From Methanothrix sp. (GTDB lineage Archaea > Halobacteriota > Methanosarcinia > Methanotrichales > Methanotrichaceae), in the NCBI RefSeq assembly GCF_030055635.1, contig NZ_JASFYM010000002.1, positions 93,290 to 157,289 on the forward strand: 64,000 nucleotides of DNA, given 5' to 3'. Under the pieces are notes generated by a model. The model was given only the letters and a program-made list of their open reading frames with translations. It searched no databases and had not been told where the DNA came from. Of this stretch, positions 40,263 through 48,709 are shown piece after piece (position 1 is the stretch's first letter; every line of letters begins with the position of its first letter). The position numbers and the translations under genes are program-made.

Positions 40263-42680
40263 ATGGCAAAGCTCGAGGGCAGCTTTACAGTTGAGGACAT
40301 GAAGAATGTCCAGATCAACATAGGGGCTGTCGTTAAGGAGGAGGAGGAATGGGACCAGCCGATGGGTCCGTTCCCGAAGCCACAGATCGCAACCCTGCGC
40401 GACTGGGACTTCAAGATTTTGAACCGTTACAGAATATTCTACGCGCCTGCAGACGATACCTGTACACTGTGTACATACGGCCCATGTGACCTCACCGGCA
40501 ACAAGCGTGGAGCATGCGGCATAAACATGGAGGGGACGTGCGGAAAGATCGTTCTAGTCGCATGCCTGATGGGCACATGTGCTCACACCGCACATGGAAT
40601 ACATCTGTATCACTGGGTGATGGATCGCTTCGGCGATATGAAGTTCGATATGGGGTCAGAGATCCTCTATGATGCGCCGATATACCAGACGGTCATGGGT
40701 AAGAAGCCCAGGACGCTGAAGGAGTTCGGAGAGGGGCTTACATACATTGAGGAGCAGGTTGCAAATCTCCTCGCGGCAACACACACCGGCCAGGAAGGCA
40801 GCTACACGGATTTCGAGTCCAAGGCACTGCATGCAGGAATGCTGGACATGCTCGGAATGGAGATCTGCGATATGCTCCAGGTAGTGGCCTACGACATGCC
40901 GCGCGGTGATCCGAATGCTCCCCTCGTTGAGATCGGAATGGGGACCCTCGATCAGAACAAGGCTGTGCTGATCGCATACGGTCATAACCTGGCGGCAGGT
41001 GCCGAGGCGATGGTCTACATCGAGAACAACAAACTCTGGGACAAGGTGGATATTGGAGGCGTCTGCTGTACAGCCCACGACCTGACGAGGATCACCGAGG
41101 CCGGGAATCCGTCGATTCTGCCGCAGAATCTCGGACCCAAGGCGAAGGTCGCCGGCGCGATCGGATGGTGGCGGAAGATGGTCAGGGCCGGCATCATGGA
41201 TGTGGTGATGGTCGATGAGCAGTGCGTGTGGTGTGATACGCTTAAGGACTGCGAGGAGCGCAAGATCCCCGTCATCGCAACCACCGACAAGATAATGTAC
41301 GGTCTGAAGGACAGGACAAATGATCCAGTCGATGCCATAGTTGATGATCTCGCTAACTTCAGGGTGCCGGGCGTTGTTATACTTGACCCGATGAAGGCAG
41401 GTGAGGTTGGCGTCAAGACAGCGATTGCTGTTAAGCCGAAGCGCGCTGAGATTAAGGCTAAAAGCATTCTTACAGAAGAGGAGTTCAAGAAGCTGGTCTC
41501 GAGCTGTACCAAGTGCAACGAGTGCGCTTTCGTCTGCCCACCACACATAAGAATAAGCCATCTCATGGAGGAAGCAGCCAAAGGCAACCTCGAGCCGTTC
41601 TCCTCCACGTACGAGGTCTGCGTTGGCTGTGGCAGATGCGAGCAGGTCTGCAGGCAGGATCTCCCGATACTCAAGATGTATGAGTATGCCAACAGGGAGT
41701 ACATAAAGAACCAGAAGTTCAAGATGAGGGCAGGCAGAGGTCCGGCAAAGGATACAGAGATCAGGACAGTTGGTGCTCCAATCGTCCTTGGCACGATACC
41801 TGGCGTTATTGCGCTGGTCGGATGCAGCAACTATCCGAATGGCACAAAGGAGGCATATGACATCGCCAAGGAGTTCGTCGACCGTGGCTACATTGTTGTG
41901 ACCTCCGGATGCATGGCAATGGACATGTCCCTCTACACAAACGAGGAGGGCAAGACCATATGGGAGCAGTACCCGGGTGGCTTTGATGGCAGGAACATAT
42001 GCAACGTGGGTTCATGCGTAGCCAACTCGCATATAGGCGGAGCTGCGATCAAGGTCGCCACGATATTCGCCCACAGGAATCACAGGGCTAACTGGGATGA
42101 TATCGCGGATTACATCCTCTCCAAGGTCGGAGCGTGCGGCATTGCGTGGGGTGCATACTCGCAGAAGGCTGCATCCATTGCCACGGGATGTAACAGACTT
42201 GGCGTGCCTGTTGTTGTGCAGCCGCACTCTGTGATATACCGCAGGGCGTTCCTGGGCAGGGCGGATGTACCTGAGGACTGGGTCGTCATAGATGCAAGAG
42301 ATGGCTCCAAGGTGAGGGTCGAGCCTGCTCCTGAGCATCTGTTATACGTGGCGGAGACAAAGGAGGAGGCCATGCTGATGATGGCCAAGCTCTGCTTCAG
42401 GCCCAGCGACAACTCCATGGGCAGGATGATCAAGCTGACCCACTACTGCGACATATCCATGAAGTACTTCGGCAAGCTGCCTGATGACTGGCCGGTATAT
42501 GTCAGGCACGCATCCGAGATTCCGCTCGCCTGGAAGGATCAGATGATGAAGGAGCTCGAGGAGAAGTACGGCTGGAAGATCGACTGGAAGGGGAAGAAGA
42601 TCATCGAGGGTCCGCTCAGGCCGGCGGATGTGAGCTTCGATCCGACCAACATCGAGAGGAAGATTAGGGTCAGGAAGTGA
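40263..42680 (+). CDS. cdhA: Acetyl-CoA decarbonylase/synthase subunit alpha (CO dehydrogenase)
   Basis: Ni-Fe-S carbon monoxide dehydrogenase of the ACDS complex; oxidises the carbonyl of acetyl-CoA to CO2 during acetate catabolism. 805 residues, standard length. Cluster ligands visible: CTLCTYGPCDLTGNKRGACG near residue 75, two ferredoxin-like motifs CTKCNECAFVCPP and CVGCGRCEQVC near residue 420-465, GVCCTAHD, and C-cluster segments CNVGSCVANSHIGGA and VGACGIAW. It pairs with cdhB, whose ATG is five bases after the cdhA stop. First gene of the operon. Confidence 0.98.
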   Translation: MAKLEGSFTVEDMKNVQINIGAVVKEEEEWDQPMGPFPKPQIATLRDWDFKILNRYRIFYAPADDTCTLCTYGPCDLTGNKRGACGINMEGTCGKIVLVACLMGTCAHTAHGIHLYHWVMDRFGDMKFDMGSEILYDAPIYQTVMGKKPRTLKEFGEGLTYIEEQVANLLAATHTGQEGSYTDFESKALHAGMLDMLGMEICDMLQVVAYDMPRGDPNAPLVEIGMGTLDQNKAVLIAYGHNLAAGAEAMVYIENNKLWDKVDIGGVCCTAHDLTRITEAGNPSILPQNLGPKAKVAGAIGWWRKMVRAGIMDVVMVDEQCVWCDTLKDCEERKIPVIATTDKIMYGLKDRTNDPVDAIVDDLANFRVPGVVILDPMKAGEVGVKTAIAVKPKRAEIKAKSILTEEEFKKLVSSCTKCNECAFVCPPHIRISHLMEEAAKGNLEPFSSTYEVCVGCGRCEQVCRQDLPILKMYEYANREYIKNQKFKMRAGRGPAKDTEIRTVGAPIVLGTIPGVIALVGCSNYPNGTKEAYDIAKEFVDRGYIVVTSGCMAMDMSLYTNEEGKTIWEQYPGGFDGRNICNVGSCVANSHIGGAAIKVATIFAHRNHRANWDDIADYILSKVGACGIAWGAYSQKAASIATGCNRLGVPVVVQPHSVIYRRAFLGRADVPEDWVVIDARDGSKVRVEPAPEHLLYVAETKEEAMLMMAKLCFRPSDNSMGRMIKLTHYCDISMKYFGKLPDDWPVYVRHASEIPLAWKDQMMKELEEKYGWKIDWKGKKIIEGPLRPADVSFDPTNIERKIRVRK

Positions 42681-42685
42681 GGGAA

Positions 42686-43234
42686 ATGGCAGTCGATACA
42701 ACCAAAAACCCCATACCTTTTGAGATGGCCCAGATCCCGGGGCCTGAGATGGCAAAGGCCTATCCTGTGAAGGTCATAGGCGCCATCATAAAGAAGGCCA
42801 AGAGGCCGCTGCTGGTCGTGGGAGGAGAGCTCTTCGACGACCCGATCATGTTCGACAAGGCGATAGAGATCGCCAAGGCGAAGAACATGACCATCGCAGC
42901 GACAGCTCACACGATCAAGGGCTTCATCGAGAGAGGGTACACGACGAACGTCTATCAGATCGGCCTGCATCCTCTGACTAACTACCTCCGGTTCAAGGAC
43001 TGGAAGGGCCTGGATGGGCAGGGACACTACGATGTGGTCATCTTCATGGGTATCTTCTACAAGTTCGCCAACGCCATGTTCTCCGCGCTGAAGCACTTCA
43101 ACAGGGACATCAAGCGCATCTCCATTGACAGGTACTACCATGTCAACGCTGATATGACATTCGGGAACCTGGCGTTCGACTCTGCAGGATACCACGAGGC
43201 GATCGATGAGCTGATTGCAATACTGAAGAAGTGA
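42686..43234 (+). CDS. cdhB: ACDS subunit epsilon
   Basis: Small partner of CdhA in the alpha2-epsilon2 component; a DHS-like Rossmann fold without cofactor ligands, thought to stabilise alpha. 182 residues from ATG 42686: MAVDTTKNPIPFEMAQIPG, then KKAKRPLLVVGGELFD and DVVIFMGIFYKFANAMFSALKHF. The start replaces an in-frame GTG at 42677 that overlaps cdhA. About 50 bases separate it from cdhC. Confidence 0.96.
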   Translation: MAVDTTKNPIPFEMAQIPGPEMAKAYPVKVIGAIIKKAKRPLLVVGGELFDDPIMFDKAIEIAKAKNMTIAATAHTIKGFIERGYTTNVYQIGLHPLTNYLRFKDWKGLDGQGHYDVVIFMGIFYKFANAMFSALKHFNRDIKRISIDRYYHVNADMTFGNLAFDSAGYHEAIDELIAILKK

Positions 43235-43283: not shown

Positions 43284-44693
43284 ATGGCTGAAGAGATTCA
43301 ACTGGACATATCCCCGATGTACGAGGGGGAGCGCATAAGGAAGGAAGACCTGTGGGTAGAGATGGGCGGACCGAAGGCAGACGGATTCGAGCTGACACTG
43401 GCCGCCTCGATGGACGAGGTAGAGGACGGGAAGGTCACGATCATCGGGCCTGACCTGAAGGATGTCAAGGAGGGCTCAACGATCCCCTTCGGCATGATAT
43501 TCAAGGTCGCAGGCGAGAAGATCGAGAAGGACCTGGAGTCGATCATAGAGAGGCGCAACCACGCTCTGCTCTCCTACATAAGCGGCCTCATGCACCTCAA
43601 CCAGAGGTACGATATCTGGATGAGGCTGGGCAAGAGCCTCCAGAAGAAGGGCGTCACATCATGGGAGCAGATATTCAAGCCTGTCATCAACCTGTACAAG
43701 GCCGAGATGCCCTTCATCGAGAAGATGGAGGTCACAATCGTCACGGACCCGGCGAAGGTAAAGGAGGAGCTGGAGAAGGCGATGAAGGTCTACAAGGCGA
43801 GGGACGAGAGGGCGAAGGGTCTGCACGATGAAGACGTGGATGTCTTCTATGGCTGCACTCTCTGCCAGGCGTTCGCCCCCACAAGCGCATGCGTTGTGAC
43901 GCCCGACAGGCCTTCGCTCTGCGGTGCCATCACATGGTTCGATGGCCGCGCTGCGTCCAAGGTCGACCCGGAGGGCCCGCAGTTCCCGATACCCAAGGAG
44001 GGGCTGAAGGACCCGATCACTGGAGAGTATGAGAGCATCAACCAGATGGCTGCAAAGAGATCCGGCGGCGAGTACACGGTGATGAAGCTGTACACCTTCT
44101 TCGATGCACCACACACCTCATGCGGCTGCTTCGAGACGATCGGCTTCTACATGCCTGAGGTCGACGGAATAGGGATCGCGGACCGCGACTTCAAGGGCGC
44201 TGCTCCTAATGGCCTGCCGTTCTCGACCATGGCCGGACAGACAGGCGGCGGCAAGCAGGTCGTCGGCTTCCTCGGAATGGGAGTTCTCTACTACTTCTCC
44301 CCGAAGTTCCTCCAGGCAGATGGCGGCTGGCGCAGGATAGTCTGGATGTCCAAGAGGCTCAAGGAGAGGGTGAAGGAAGGAATACCCGCGGAGATGTACG
44401 ACAAGATCGCCACCGAGGACGATGCCAAGGATCTAGAGTCCCTGAAGAGGTTCCTGCTCAAGGTCGACCATCCTGTCGTGACGGGTGTTGTGAGGCCTGT
44501 TGACGGCAAGAAGATCACCGAGGGCTGGAAGTTTGAGGAGATAACAGACGAGCTCAAGGAGAAGGTCATCGCCTTCATCGAGAAGTATGGAGGAGAGATC
44601 GATACAGACAACGTGAAGAACGAGCTCCTCATGAGCGAGGGGCAGTTCATGCAGGTTGTCGAGGCACTCCAGGCCGATGGCGTGCTAGAGTGA
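43284..44693 (+). CDS. cdhC: Acetyl-CoA synthase, ACDS subunit beta
   Basis: Holds the Ni-Ni-[4Fe-4S] A cluster that makes or breaks the C-C bond of acetyl-CoA. 469 residues from ATG 43284 with GGAGAGGTG upstream. A-cluster Cys ligands are in FYGCTLCQAFAPTSACVV and in HTSCGCFE. The GAITWFDGRAA and FLGMGVLYYFSPKF segments are conserved. The C-terminus ends in a helical region (LLMSEGQFMQVVEALQADGV) without an Ala/Pro-rich tail; instead two Ala/Pro-rich small proteins are encoded right after it. Central gene of the operon. Confidence 0.97.
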   Translation: MAEEIQLDISPMYEGERIRKEDLWVEMGGPKADGFELTLAASMDEVEDGKVTIIGPDLKDVKEGSTIPFGMIFKVAGEKIEKDLESIIERRNHALLSYISGLMHLNQRYDIWMRLGKSLQKKGVTSWEQIFKPVINLYKAEMPFIEKMEVTIVTDPAKVKEELEKAMKVYKARDERAKGLHDEDVDVFYGCTLCQAFAPTSACVVTPDRPSLCGAITWFDGRAASKVDPEGPQFPIPKEGLKDPITGEYESINQMAAKRSGGEYTVMKLYTFFDAPHTSCGCFETIGFYMPEVDGIGIADRDFKGAAPNGLPFSTMAGQTGGGKQVVGFLGMGVLYYFSPKFLQADGGWRRIVWMSKRLKERVKEGIPAEMYDKIATEDDAKDLESLKRFLLKVDHPVVTGVVRPVDGKKITEGWKFEEITDELKEKVIAFIEKYGGEIDTDNVKNELLMSEGQFMQVVEALQADGVLE

Positions 44694-44709: not shown

Positions 44710-44898
44710 ATGGCCAAGCTGGTATTGAAGAAGAAGGAGGCGGCTGCGCCCGCGGCCGCTCCTGCTGCCGCAGCCCCTGCGGCTGCCGCACCTGCTGGAG
44801 CTCCGGCGTTCGCCATGCCCGCGGCCGGCGGTGCTGGCATAAAGCTGGTGCTGAAGGACGCGAAGATAACAATAGACAAGGTGGTTCTGGCGAAGTAG
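44710..44898 (+). CDS. Ala/Pro-rich small protein 1 of the cdh operon
   Basis: 62 residues: basic start MAKLVLKKKE, about 30 residues of Ala/Pro, then GGAGIKLVLKDAKITIDKV ending VLAK. ATG at 44710 follows GGAGG and lies 16 bases after the cdhC stop. A paralogue follows at 44954 with the same layout. The shape is a flexible linker between two short beta-forming ends. Such linkers tether mobile domains in multienzyme complexes, so a role in the ACDS complex is suggested but unproven. Not a recognised family. Confidence 0.8.
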   Translation: MAKLVLKKKEAAAPAAAPAAAAPAAAAPAGAPAFAMPAAGGAGIKLVLKDAKITIDKVVLAK

Positions 44899-44953
44899 AA
44901 CACCTGTCTCCTCTATATTTTTGCTGAGGGAGATTGAGAGGGAGGTTTTGGAT

Positions 44954-45145
44954 ATGGCCAAGTTAGTGCTCAAGAAGAAGGAAGCTGCTGCACCCGCAGC
45001 TGCTCCCGCGGCTGCTCCCGCATCTGCGGCTGCCGCACCTGCTGCACCGATGTTTGCGCCCGCTGCTGGTTCTCAGGGAATCATCCTGGAGCTCAGAGGT
45101 GCGACTGTACATATTCAGGAAGTAGTCATCAAGCAGAAGAAGTAA
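44954..45145 (+). CDS. Ala/Pro-rich small protein 2 of the cdh operon
   Basis: 63 residues. The first 10 residues (MAKLVLKKKE) are identical to the previous protein, followed by the same Ala/Pro linker and a diverged C-terminal segment GIILELRGATVHIQEVVI. The two C-termini share the pattern G-I-x-L-x-L-x-x-A-x-x-x-I-x-x-V-V. Tandem duplication is evident. ATG at 44954 has GGAGG ahead. It lies between its paralogue and cooC, 13 bases before the cooC start. Confidence 0.8.
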   Translation: MAKLVLKKKEAAAPAAAPAAAPASAAAAPAAPMFAPAAGSQGIILELRGATVHIQEVVIKQKK

Positions 45146-45158
45146 GGAAGGCTAGATC

Positions 45159-45920
45159 TTGGGGAGAGTAATAGCGATAACAGGGAAGGGCGGTACTGGC
45201 AAGACTGCAGTCGCCGCTCTTCTGGTCAGGTATCTGATCAAGAGCGGCAGGAAATACCGTGTTCTGGTGATCGATGCAGATCCAGATTCGAACCTCGCTG
45301 ATGCTCTGGGCGTGGAGGTCACGAAGACCGTTGGGGATATGAGGGAGTTCATGCAGGAGGCCAGGTACACCACACCGCCGGACACGGACAAGGAGAGGCT
45401 CTTCGAGGCGAAGATCTTCGAGATCCTTGTCGAGGAGAACGGCTACGATCTTCTGGTCATGGGCAAACCCGAGGGCTCTGGATGCTACTGTTTTGTCAAC
45501 AACCTTCTCAGGGGCATAATGGACAGGCTGATAGATCAGTACGACATCACAATCATAGACACCGCTGCAGGCCTGGAGCACTTCAGCAGGAAGGTGATCC
45601 CTGACCTGGACTCTTTGATCGTGGTCACTGACTCCTCCAGGCGTGGTCTCACCACAGGTGAGCGGATAAGGGAGCTGGCCTCGGAGCTGGGTCTGAAGTA
45701 CAACAACCTCTACGTCATCGCAAACAAGGTGACAGAGGGCAATAAGGAGAAGATCATCGAGAACGCCAGGTCCGTCAGCCTCAATGTTATCGGCACAATC
45801 CCCTATGATGAGAGGTTAGCCAGCTTCGATCTGGTGGGAGACCCATTGATCAACCTGCCTGACGATACGCCCGCGGTGAAGGAGATCGAGGAGCATGTCG
45901 TCAAGGCTCTTGGTATTTGA
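45159..45920 (+). CDS. cooC: CooC-type nickel-insertion ATPase for CODH/ACS
   Basis: MinD/NifH-fold ATPase of 253 residues that helps load nickel into CO dehydrogenase or acetyl-CoA synthase. P loop GKGGTGKT at 9-16, switch VIDADPDSNLADALG, and the metal-binding Cys-x-Cys pair in GSGCYCFVNN (about residues 110-114), then IDTAAGLEHFSR. The start is TTG at 45159; no ATG fits. Location inside the cdh operon matches the cooC of Methanosarcina cdh operons. Confidence 0.94.
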   Translation: MGRVIAITGKGGTGKTAVAALLVRYLIKSGRKYRVLVIDADPDSNLADALGVEVTKTVGDMREFMQEARYTTPPDTDKERLFEAKIFEILVEENGYDLLVMGKPEGSGCYCFVNNLLRGIMDRLIDQYDITIIDTAAGLEHFSRKVIPDLDSLIVVTDSSRRGLTTGERIRELASELGLKYNNLYVIANKVTEGNKEKIIENARSVSLNVIGTIPYDERLASFDLVGDPLINLPDDTPAVKEIEEHVVKALGI

Positions 45921-45932
45921 AGGGTGATTTAT

Positions 45933-47291
45933 ATGGCAGAGGAGAAGAAGATCAAGTTGTCAGATCTGAACAAGACTTTGGCGGAATACGGCGTTGAGGC
46001 CATCGAGGGAGTATCCATCGAGGGCGATATAGAGATCGAGATAGATACCGGGGCTGCCGGCATAGGGCCGCTCTTCGCCTACTACTTCGGCCAGGAGGTT
46101 GCCCAGATCGCAGTGCAGCTCGTCAAGTTCGCCAGGAGCATGGGATATCCGGTAGATGCTCTGCTCCAGCCTGCCGCAGTTGCGCATGCGATAGCTCCAG
46201 CCCCTGCTGAGGTCGTAGAGGCCGCAGCCAAGGTACCGGAGTGGAAGGTCGCCACAAGCCTGGTCCAGGCGAAGTTCCAGGTCGGAATCGACGAGACCTG
46301 GAAGTATCCGATCCAGGAGGTCACGCTTGGAGCCACGAAGGCAGATGGCGGAAGCAGAGGTCACACGATCAAGATAGGCGGAGAGAAGGCGCTGCCGTTC
46401 TTCTACGATGCGCCGATGCCGCACAGGCCCGTGGTCACGATGGACGTCTTCGACATGCCCATCGGAATGGCAAAGGCGGTCAAGATGCACTATGAGGATG
46501 TCGTCAATGATCCCGGCGAGTGGGCGAAGAAGGCTGTAACAAAGTTCGGCGCTGATCTCGTCACAATACACCTCATAAGCACAGATCCCCTCCTGAAGGA
46601 TACACCTCCCAGAGAGGCAGCCAAGACGGTCGAGGAGGTCCTCCAGGCTGTGGACGTTCCGATATGCATCGGCGGCTCCGGCAACCCGGACAAGGATCCT
46701 GAGGTCCTCAAGGCTGCTGCAGAGGTCGCACAGGGCGAGCGCGCGCTGATCGCAAGCGCCAACCTGAACATGGACTGGGAGAAGATCGGGAGGGCGTGTG
46801 TGGACAATGGTCATGTATGCCTGGCATGGACGCAGCTCGAGATCAACTCCCAGAAGGAGCTCAACAGGAAGCTCATGAAGGTCGCCGGAGTGCCGAGGGA
46901 GTCCATAGTTATGGATCCGACAACGGCTGCCCTCGCATACGGTCTCGACTTCGCGTACACCAACATGGAGCGCATAAGGCTCGGAGCGCTGAAGGGCGAC
47001 GAGGAGCTCACATTCCCGATGTCCTCAGGCACTACAAACGCATGGGGCGTCAGGGAGGCCTGGATGGTCCGCTCGCCCAACAAGGAGGACTCGGACTGGG
47101 GCGACAGGATGCTCAGAGGCCCGATCTGGGAGATCATCACCGGATTCTCGCTTGCGATGGCAGGCGTTGATCTGTTCATGATGATGCATCCTCTTGCGGT
47201 CGCATACCTCCAGGAGATCACTCAGACTCTCATGGGACTGATAGATGCGCAGACTCCTGATTTAACCAACTGGGTCAAGATGGAGGTCTGA
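45933..47291 (+). CDS. cdhD: ACDS subunit delta (corrinoid protein, small subunit)
   Basis: 452 residues from ATG 45933 ([20 protein letters not shown]). TIM-barrel subunit of the corrinoid iron-sulfur protein that carries the methyl group between acetyl-CoA and tetrahydrosarcinapterin. Conserved: [58 protein letters not shown] and [23 protein letters not shown] (quoted in parts). A short Ala/Pro stretch ([13 protein letters not shown]) sits near residue 90. Twelve bases separate it from cooC, and cdhE follows five bases after its stop. Confidence 0.97.
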
Positions 47292-47296
47292 TAGCG

Positions 47297-48709
47297 ATGA
47301 AGGAAAAGAGCCCCCTAAACCTTTACAAGCATCTGCCTCAGACCAACTGCGGAAAGTGCGGGCTGCAGACGTGCATGGCATTTGCAGCAGCTCTTATCGA
47401 CAGGTCCAAGCGCGTCGAGGAGTGCACACCGCTGGTTGAGGATAAAAAGTACGCGAAGAAGTATGAGACCCTCAAGTCGATAGTTGCCCCTGAGATAAGG
47501 CTCGTCTATGTGGGCACAGGCGAGAAGGAGCTGAAGGTCGGCGGCGAGGATGTCATGTACCGCCACCAGATGACGTTCTTCAACAAGCCGCCATTCGCAT
47601 ACGATGTCACTGATACAATGGACGAGGCAGCTCTCGTCGAGCGCGTGAAGAAGATCAGCACGTGGAAGAAGTTCTACATAGGCAAGTGGGAGCGCGTGGA
47701 GATGATCGCGGTCCGGTCGACCTCTGGCGATCCCGCGAAGTTCGCCGCGTGCGTGAAGAAGGTGATGGAGACCACAGACTATCCGATGATACTCTGCTCC
47801 TTCGATCCGAAGGTCCTGAGGGCCGGCCTCGAGGTCGCAGCGAAGACCAGGCCTCTGGTTTATGCAGCGAACAAGGAGAACTGGCAGGAGGTCGCGAAGC
47901 TCGTCCACGAGTTCAACGTGCCCGTTGTTCTCAGCGTGCCCTTCGATCTTGACGGCCTCAAGTCGATGGCGCTGACGTTCGAGCAGATGGGCATCCACGA
48001 TCTCATCCTGGATTTCGGAACAGCGCCCAACGGCAAGAAGCTCCAGGAGTCGCTGCACAACCTCCTCAAGCTCAGAAGGGCGGCGCTCGAGGAGGGCCAG
48101 AGGGATATCGCCTATCCGACGATCGCCCTGCCGATCAACGCATGGTTCACCACCAAGGACCCGGTGAGGGCTGCGTACTGGGAGTCCATCCTCACAGCGA
48201 CATTCGTCATACGCGGCGCCTCTATAATGATCAAGCACTGCATCGAGCCGCACTGCGTGATGCCTGACATGCACCTCAGGTATAACATCTACACCGACCC
48301 GAGGAGACCTGTCCAGGTCAAGCCCGGCATCTACAAGGTCGGCAACCCCACAGAGGAGTCGCCGGTCTTTGTCACGACGAACTTCGCCCTCACCTACTAC
48401 ACAGTCGAGTCGGATGTCGCCTCGAACAACATCGATGCCTACATAATGTCCATCAACACAGACGGTATCGGTGTGCAGGCATCGGTCGCAGGCGGCCAGC
48501 TGAACCCGCAGAAGATCGTCGATGCGTTCAAGGAGGCCGACTTCGACCTCACAAAGATGAAGTATCCGTCGATCGTTCTGCCAGGTATGGCCGCGAAGTT
48601 CAGCGGCGAGCTCGAGGACCTCTTCGGAGGAAAGGTGAAGATCCTGGTGGGACCAGAGGATTCCGGACGCATAGTCGACTGGATGAAGAGCTACTGGCCA
48701 CCGAAGTGA
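47297..48709 (+). CDS. cdhE: ACDS subunit gamma (corrinoid iron-sulfur protein, large subunit)
   Basis: 470 residues. The N-terminal [4Fe-4S] motif has Cys18, Cys21, Cys26 and Cys43 (TNCGKCGLQTC ... EECTPL). A TIM barrel follows, and the C-terminal corrinoid-binding Rossmann-like domain includes LTYYTVESDVASNNIDAYI and VGPEDSGRIVDWMK. It receives the methyl group with CdhD. Last gene of the operon; a hairpin with a T tract follows immediately after the stop. Confidence 0.97.
   Translation: MKEKSPLNLYKHLPQTNCGKCGLQTCMAFAAALIDRSKRVEECTPLVEDKKYAKKYETLKSIVAPEIRLVYVGTGEKELKVGGEDVMYRHQMTFFNKPPFAYDVTDTMDEAALVERVKKISTWKKFYIGKWERVEMIAVRSTSGDPAKFAACVKKVMETTDYPMILCSFDPKVLRAGLEVAAKTRPLVYAANKENWQEVAKLVHEFNVPVVLSVPFDLDGLKSMALTFEQMGIHDLILDFGTAPNGKKLQESLHNLLKLRRAALEEGQRDIAYPTIALPINAWFTTKDPVRAAYWESILTATFVIRGASIMIKHCIEPHCVMPDMHLRYNIYTDPRRPVQVKPGIYKVGNPTEESPVFVTTNFALTYYTVESDVASNNIDAYIMSINTDGIGVQASVAGGQLNPQKIVDAFKEADFDLTKMKYPSIVLPGMAAKFSGELEDLFGGKVKILVGPEDSGRIVDWMKSYWPPK

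Follow-up and report, generated by a model that had tools for sequence, protein, structure and literature searches.

Organization of the cdh Locus

The stretch of DNA analysed (the window, 64,000 nucleotides from Methanothrix sp.) contains on its forward strand a cluster with the gene order cdhA-cdhB-cdhC-P1-P2-cooC-cdhD-cdhE. The genes for the alpha and epsilon subunits of CO dehydrogenase (CODH), cdhA (40263..42680; Pfam Prismane/CODH family, phmmer in related loci) and cdhB (42677..43234; Pfam CO_dh), are followed by cdhC, which encodes the beta subunit, acetyl-CoA synthase (ACS), without its usual C-terminal tail (43284..44693; Pfam PF03598 and PF19436). At the other end of the cluster lie a gene for a cooC-like ATPase (45159..45920; Pfam CbiA), cdhD for the CFeSP delta subunit, in which an N-terminal domain and an Ala/Pro linker precede the Pfam core (45933..47291; Pfam CdhD from residue 132), and cdhE for the CFeSP gamma subunit (47297..48709; Pfam CdhD and FeS).

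Between cdhC and cooC two small proteins are encoded, P1 of 62 residues (44710..44898, from the ATG at 44710 to the stop codon ending at 44898) and P2 of 63 residues (44954..45145, ATG at 44954, stop codon ending at 45145). A ribosome-binding site of the GGAGG type is located 8 bases upstream of each start codon, being GGAGG for P1 (44697..44701) and GGGAGG for P2 (44940..44945). Both proteins consist of the same MAKLVLKKKE start, an Ala/Pro linker and a short beta-like C-terminal motif, which begins GIKLVLKDA in P1 and GIILELRGA in P2. The N-terminal strand AKLVLKKK occupies 44713..44736 in P1, where it is conserved among detached tails paired with a winged-helix CdhC and predicted as a strand by AlphaFold, and is recognized from the sequence at 44957..44980 in P2. 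The preliminary description had reported such a pair, with similar ends, beside a CdhC devoid of an Ala/Pro tail, and both observations were confirmed, the latter by the sequence of CdhC and by its coverage of the model TIGR00316, which stops at position 421.

A Pfam search with P1 and P2 matched no family, including no biotinyl or lipoyl domain. Neither protein contains cysteine, and the only histidine is found in P2. The search among relatives gave a match to P1 in 54 of the 55 good-quality genomes, and purifying selection acts on the C-terminal hairpins (pN/pS of 0.13 in 32 P1 sequences and of 0.28 in 29 P2 sequences); therefore the pair is not a product of chance.

Homology to the C-terminal Tail of CdhC

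When P1 was compared with all PDB chains, residues 415-466 of Methanosarcina thermophila CdhC were retrieved with E 9.6e-6, the runner-up having E 2.6. The comparison by profile of the C-terminal segment with the Methanosarcina CdhC C-terminus, proposed beforehand as a check, located the tail profile at residues 443-469 of the M. thermophila protein (E 3.5e-12). Moreover, in TIGR00316, the NCBI cdhC model of 460 positions, CdhC of the window fills positions 2-421 and P1 fills 427-460, that is, the C-terminus of P1 supplies the part missing from CdhC. The C-terminal motif of P1, GIKLVLKDAKITIDKVVLAK (44836..44895; tail profile, per-genome E about 4e-11), contains the beta-motif GIKLxLK[ND]AKIxI[DEG]K of the type-1 tail behind a low-complexity linker, and P1 has its own frame, start and ribosome-binding site instead of being a covalent part of CdhC. 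The earlier idea of a detached CdhC tail domain is well supported by these matches, and P1 can be regarded, almost with certainty as far as sequence comparison allows, as the C-terminal tail of ACS encoded as its own protein.

The corresponding extension of about 75 residues in CdhC of M. thermophila was not resolved in the cryo-EM study of the enzyme published in 2024 (PMC11474084) and its function was called unknown; the authors guessed at a role in the swinging of ACS between CODH and the corrinoid protein. A literature search on detached CdhC tails and their proteomics found no report.

P2 and the Type-2 Microproteins

P2 also aligned with the tail profile (hhalign, E 2.7e-9), with a score that none of 150 column shuffles reached. 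Its C-terminal motif GIILELRGATVHIQEVVIKQKK (45077..45142) carries the type-2 signature [KR]GAxIx[IV]xExII (type-2 profile, E 2.7e-12), and P2 is itself a short separate protein encoded beside cdhC. The tail profile further detected short ORFs with the P2-type signature KGAxIxVxE directly after cdhC in lineage f9, which looks like Archaeoglobaceae; examples are MKIELKGAKIYVEKIVFKKKKR (22 aa) and MEEKKEERKFIKITLKGAEIKVSEVIIEE (29 aa). These type-2 microproteins of 22-30 residues are located at L225 1575-1647, L229 1574-1685, L236 1452-1563 and L239 1446-1557, and the CdhC beside them has its own fused tail. The type-2 profile finds members of the class in Methanotrichaceae, in f20 and in the majority of the f9 genomes; its only hits in Methanosarcinaceae are cross-matches to the CdhC tail.

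Since the type-2 class also occurs in f9 and f20, P2 is more than a copy of P1 made locally, and a recent local duplication of P1 was rejected as its origin. By its sequence P2 is assigned to a second, older class of tail module, and the f9 ORFs are predicted microproteins. The term duplicated, which had been applied to the tail, consequently needs revision: the homology of P2 to the tail holds, but P2 belongs to a distinct free-standing class.

Distribution of Fused and Detached Tails

Of the 296 genomes of the host's phylum, to which the survey extended, 158 gave a match to the tail profile. In Methanosarcinaceae, as in the remaining families of the sample, the tail is fused to the C-terminus of CdhC; in f3, class-mates of Methanotrichaceae, the match to P1 is the end of a CdhC frame of about 470 residues. 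Detached tails were found in Methanotrichaceae, the family of the window, where nearly all genomes encode it in short frames of its own, as a rule two per genome, in Ca. Methanoliparia with one copy (L175, L177, L179, L180), in lineage f11 (L143) and with the second CdhC of f20 (L257, L258); these f20 genomes also have a first CdhC, which is fused and without a winged helix. No tail match was obtained in the listed genomes with only the long bacterial-type ACS, e.g. G074, G075, G097 and G107.

A second cdhA-cdhB cluster of Methanotrichaceae (L202 1711-5395) includes an intact-looking tail gene and no cdhC, and the matching tail gene in L203 is decaying. The second CdhC copies of f10 (L259, L260, L261, L262) are located on a very long branch, have neither tail nor winged helix, and possess a common new C-terminal end.

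The Winged Helix of CdhC

In all split cases CdhC ends with a domain of about 50 residues which is missing from the fused forms. This domain was modelled by AlphaFold at pLDDT 84-91 and gave winged-helix matches, with weak E-values, in Foldseek. In the AlphaFold model the chain ends immediately behind the first wing strand, so that the winged helix looks as if it were cut off at this point. In the window the predicted domain is placed at 44541..44690 on the basis of the model of an orthologue of the same length (L151), Foldseek and the family alignment. Winged helix and tail occur together in a single chain in one genome, G076.

In a tree built from CdhC cores, winged-helix forms failed to constitute one group, and a single origin of all winged-helix/split CdhC was rejected (p_AU 5e-59); the four f20 rows lie on a long branch and their exact placement is unsure. 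A single shared origin for Methanotrichaceae and Methanoliparia is compatible with the tree (p 0.49). Since one common origin is rejected and these two groups may share theirs, the winged-helix/split state must have arisen at least three times.

One genome (G016) encodes a second winged-helix CdhC (L263 2244-3657, reverse strand), near which no tail gene was found; the tails of its main operon could serve this protein in trans.

The N-terminal Strand as a Putative Clip

Every detached tail paired with a winged-helix CdhC begins with a strand of the KLxLKKK type, and this strand is missing from the free type-2 peptides of f9, which stand beside a CdhC without winged helix. CdhC, P1 and P2 of L151 were modelled by AlphaFold as a single chain read through the stop codons. 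Short strands were predicted at residues 485-486 of P1 and 468-469, the last residues of CdhC (two residues each, the pairing being deduced from the secondary structure). The strand block of P1 reached a pLDDT of 65, compared with 45 on its N-terminal and 33 on its C-terminal side; the identical N-terminal sequence of P2 remained at 25-28.

In archaeal CdvB, as has been reported, the winged helix is broken and a strand donated by CdvA completes it (PMC5840170). The same geometry could apply here, a winged helix being present at the receptor end, as the model and the Foldseek matches indicate. The KLVLKKK strand of P1 or P2 would be added to the incomplete wing of CdhC, and since the wing would thereby be completed, the tail is proposed to be re-attached to the enzyme without a peptide bond. 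Covariation of strand and winged helix, together with the weak AlphaFold signal, makes such clipping of the tail onto CdhC moderately probable. The f9 type-2 microproteins, lacking the clip strand, must work by other means.

The C-terminal Motif and the Core of the Complex

The strong conservation of GIKLxLKNAKIxIDKxII suggests a fixed partner. The tail was compared with 182 sequence windows of CdhA, CdhB, CdhC, CdhD, CdhE and CooC, and the N-terminus of CdhA was the only non-tail one above background, scoring 18.7 against 10.9 for the next and a mean of 7.4. The CdhA motif FTVEDMKNVQINIGAVV (40284..40334), evaluated by hhalign also against a column-shuffle null, was never found detached in this work. 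Residues 1-30 of CdhA are disordered in the crystal of the isolated Ca. Ethanoperedens CODH, and this N-terminal extension, conserved in archaea, was suggested to stabilise other ACDS subunits (PMC11493965). In other published work, truncated beta was released from the native complex by limited proteolysis and a beta-gamma-delta subcomplex was also isolated. The resemblance of the CdhA N-terminus to the tail, its disorder and the isolated subcomplexes suggest a docking site that both would share in the core; docking of the tail motif near the CdhA N-terminus is given somewhat less than an even chance.

In the L151 model the C-terminal motifs were obtained at low to moderate confidence (pLDDT 48-58), and P1 and P2 motifs had identical strand patterns. 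AlphaFold modelling of P1, P2 and CdhD read through in frame (L160) gave a mean pLDDT of 48 and carried no information on the partner.

A third occurrence of the motif, on the N-terminal domain of CdhD, was rejected, since 36 of 150 shuffles reached the hhalign score of this domain against the tail; the N-termini of CdhA and CdhD slightly resemble each other. Free-standing copies of this CdhD domain, which is restricted to archaea, were observed just upstream of cdhD in Methanoliparia, f4 and f6 (L175 2125-2350; L180 8456-8702; L184 8535-8751, reverse strand; L195 8228-8552), and the copies in L169 and L173 look decayed.

Proposed Model and Alternative Explanations

P1 and P2 may each be described as a two-ended tether. 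The N-terminal strand would be held by the wing of CdhC, the Ala/Pro linker would span the gap, and the C-terminal beta-motif would dock in the ACDS core, at the site used by the CdhA N-terminus or next to it, so that ACS would be kept in the complex during its movement between CODH and the corrinoid protein. Tethering is plausible, following from the clip, the docking and the published proteolysis work. The complete model, a detached tail clipped to CdhC, docked in the core and tethering ACS, is considered more probable than not, with clipping, docking and tethering as its inferred steps. The second winged-helix CdhC of L263, with no tail gene found nearby, and the f9 microproteins without a clip strand count against it. 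It is tempting to speculate further that the 2.2-MDa ACDS is held by one beta-motif whose flexible carriers, namely the N-terminus of CdhA, P1 or the fused CdhC tail, and a so far unrecognised class of microproteins of 22-66 residues comprising P2 and its relatives, are co-assembled in the core, the tail being an exchangeable clip-on part where CdhC gained the winged helix; one ACS could then carry either tail type. This extended reading is tentative and probably goes too far.

P1 and P2 could instead be structural subunits of the core, forming a beta-scaffold with the CdhA and CdhC tails, without being re-attached to CdhC, and their N-terminal strand would bind another subunit. The coexistence of f9 type-2 microproteins, which have no clip strand, with a fused CdhC tail would agree with this, as would the identical strand patterns of the P1 and P2 motifs and the occurrence of the motif on the CdhA N-terminus. 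The restriction of the clip strand to winged-helix CdhC through at least three independent origins argues against it, and we consider this explanation unlikely. A regulatory function, in which the two proteins would modulate ACDS as MtrR and MtrI do with Mtr in Methanosarcina mazei, would suit their small size and operon position, and there are known cases of small proteins in methanogen complexes; however, P1 and P2 show homology to a segment that is covalently part of the enzyme, and throughout the family they stay together with cdhC, which renders regulation very improbable.

The position directly upstream of cooC might point to helpers of nickel or cluster maturation acting with CooC, but the absence of cysteine from both proteins and the single histidine, in P2 only, speak strongly against it; moreover, the position of cooC is the same in fused-tail lineages, and therefore the neighbourhood is inherited. 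Still less credible, by a small measure, are swinging carriers of a prosthetic group of the biotin or lipoyl type, despite the Ala/Pro linker and weak hits of low complexity in the models of methylmalonyl-CoA decarboxylase gamma/delta and E2, because these hits lie far below the cut-off and for the most part within the linker, and Pfam recognized no such domain. The clipped tether is retained as the preferred reading.

About two thirds of biological methane originates from acetate via ACDS (PMC11474084). In the lineages with detached tails, the tail can be produced and mutated separately from the enzyme and then combined with it, and the enzyme likewise; with the tail as a separate protein, the retention of ACS during its movement between CODH and the corrinoid protein becomes directly testable. 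Unnamed microproteins also join the likely components of the ACDS complex.

Comparison with Known Systems

MtrI and MtrR of Methanosarcina mazei are, like P1 and P2, small proteins tied to a core complex of methanogenesis, but belong to a different complex. To our knowledge they are not derived from the tail of a subunit of their own complex.

In the pair of the CdvA E3B peptide and CdvB (2xvc), as in the proposed clip, the winged helix is short of a wing strand, and a terminal strand of the partner takes its place. The comparison is an analogy only: CdvA and CdvB are cell-division proteins, no homology is claimed, and the CdhC pairing is weakly predicted.

The CdhA N-terminal extension has the motif LxNVxIxIGxIV in common with the CdhC tail and is likewise disordered in solved structures, whereas it stands at the N-terminus and has no Ala/Pro linker, unlike the CdhC tail and P1.

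The closest counterpart is the C-terminal extension of M. thermophila CdhC (9c0s chain E, residues 398-472), in which, as in P1, a low-complexity linker is followed by GIKLxxKNAKIxIDxxII. This extension is covalent in Methanosarcina, where it forms the end of CdhC, whereas in Methanothrix CdhC ends in a winged helix and the tail is encoded by two separate genes with an extra N-terminal strand.
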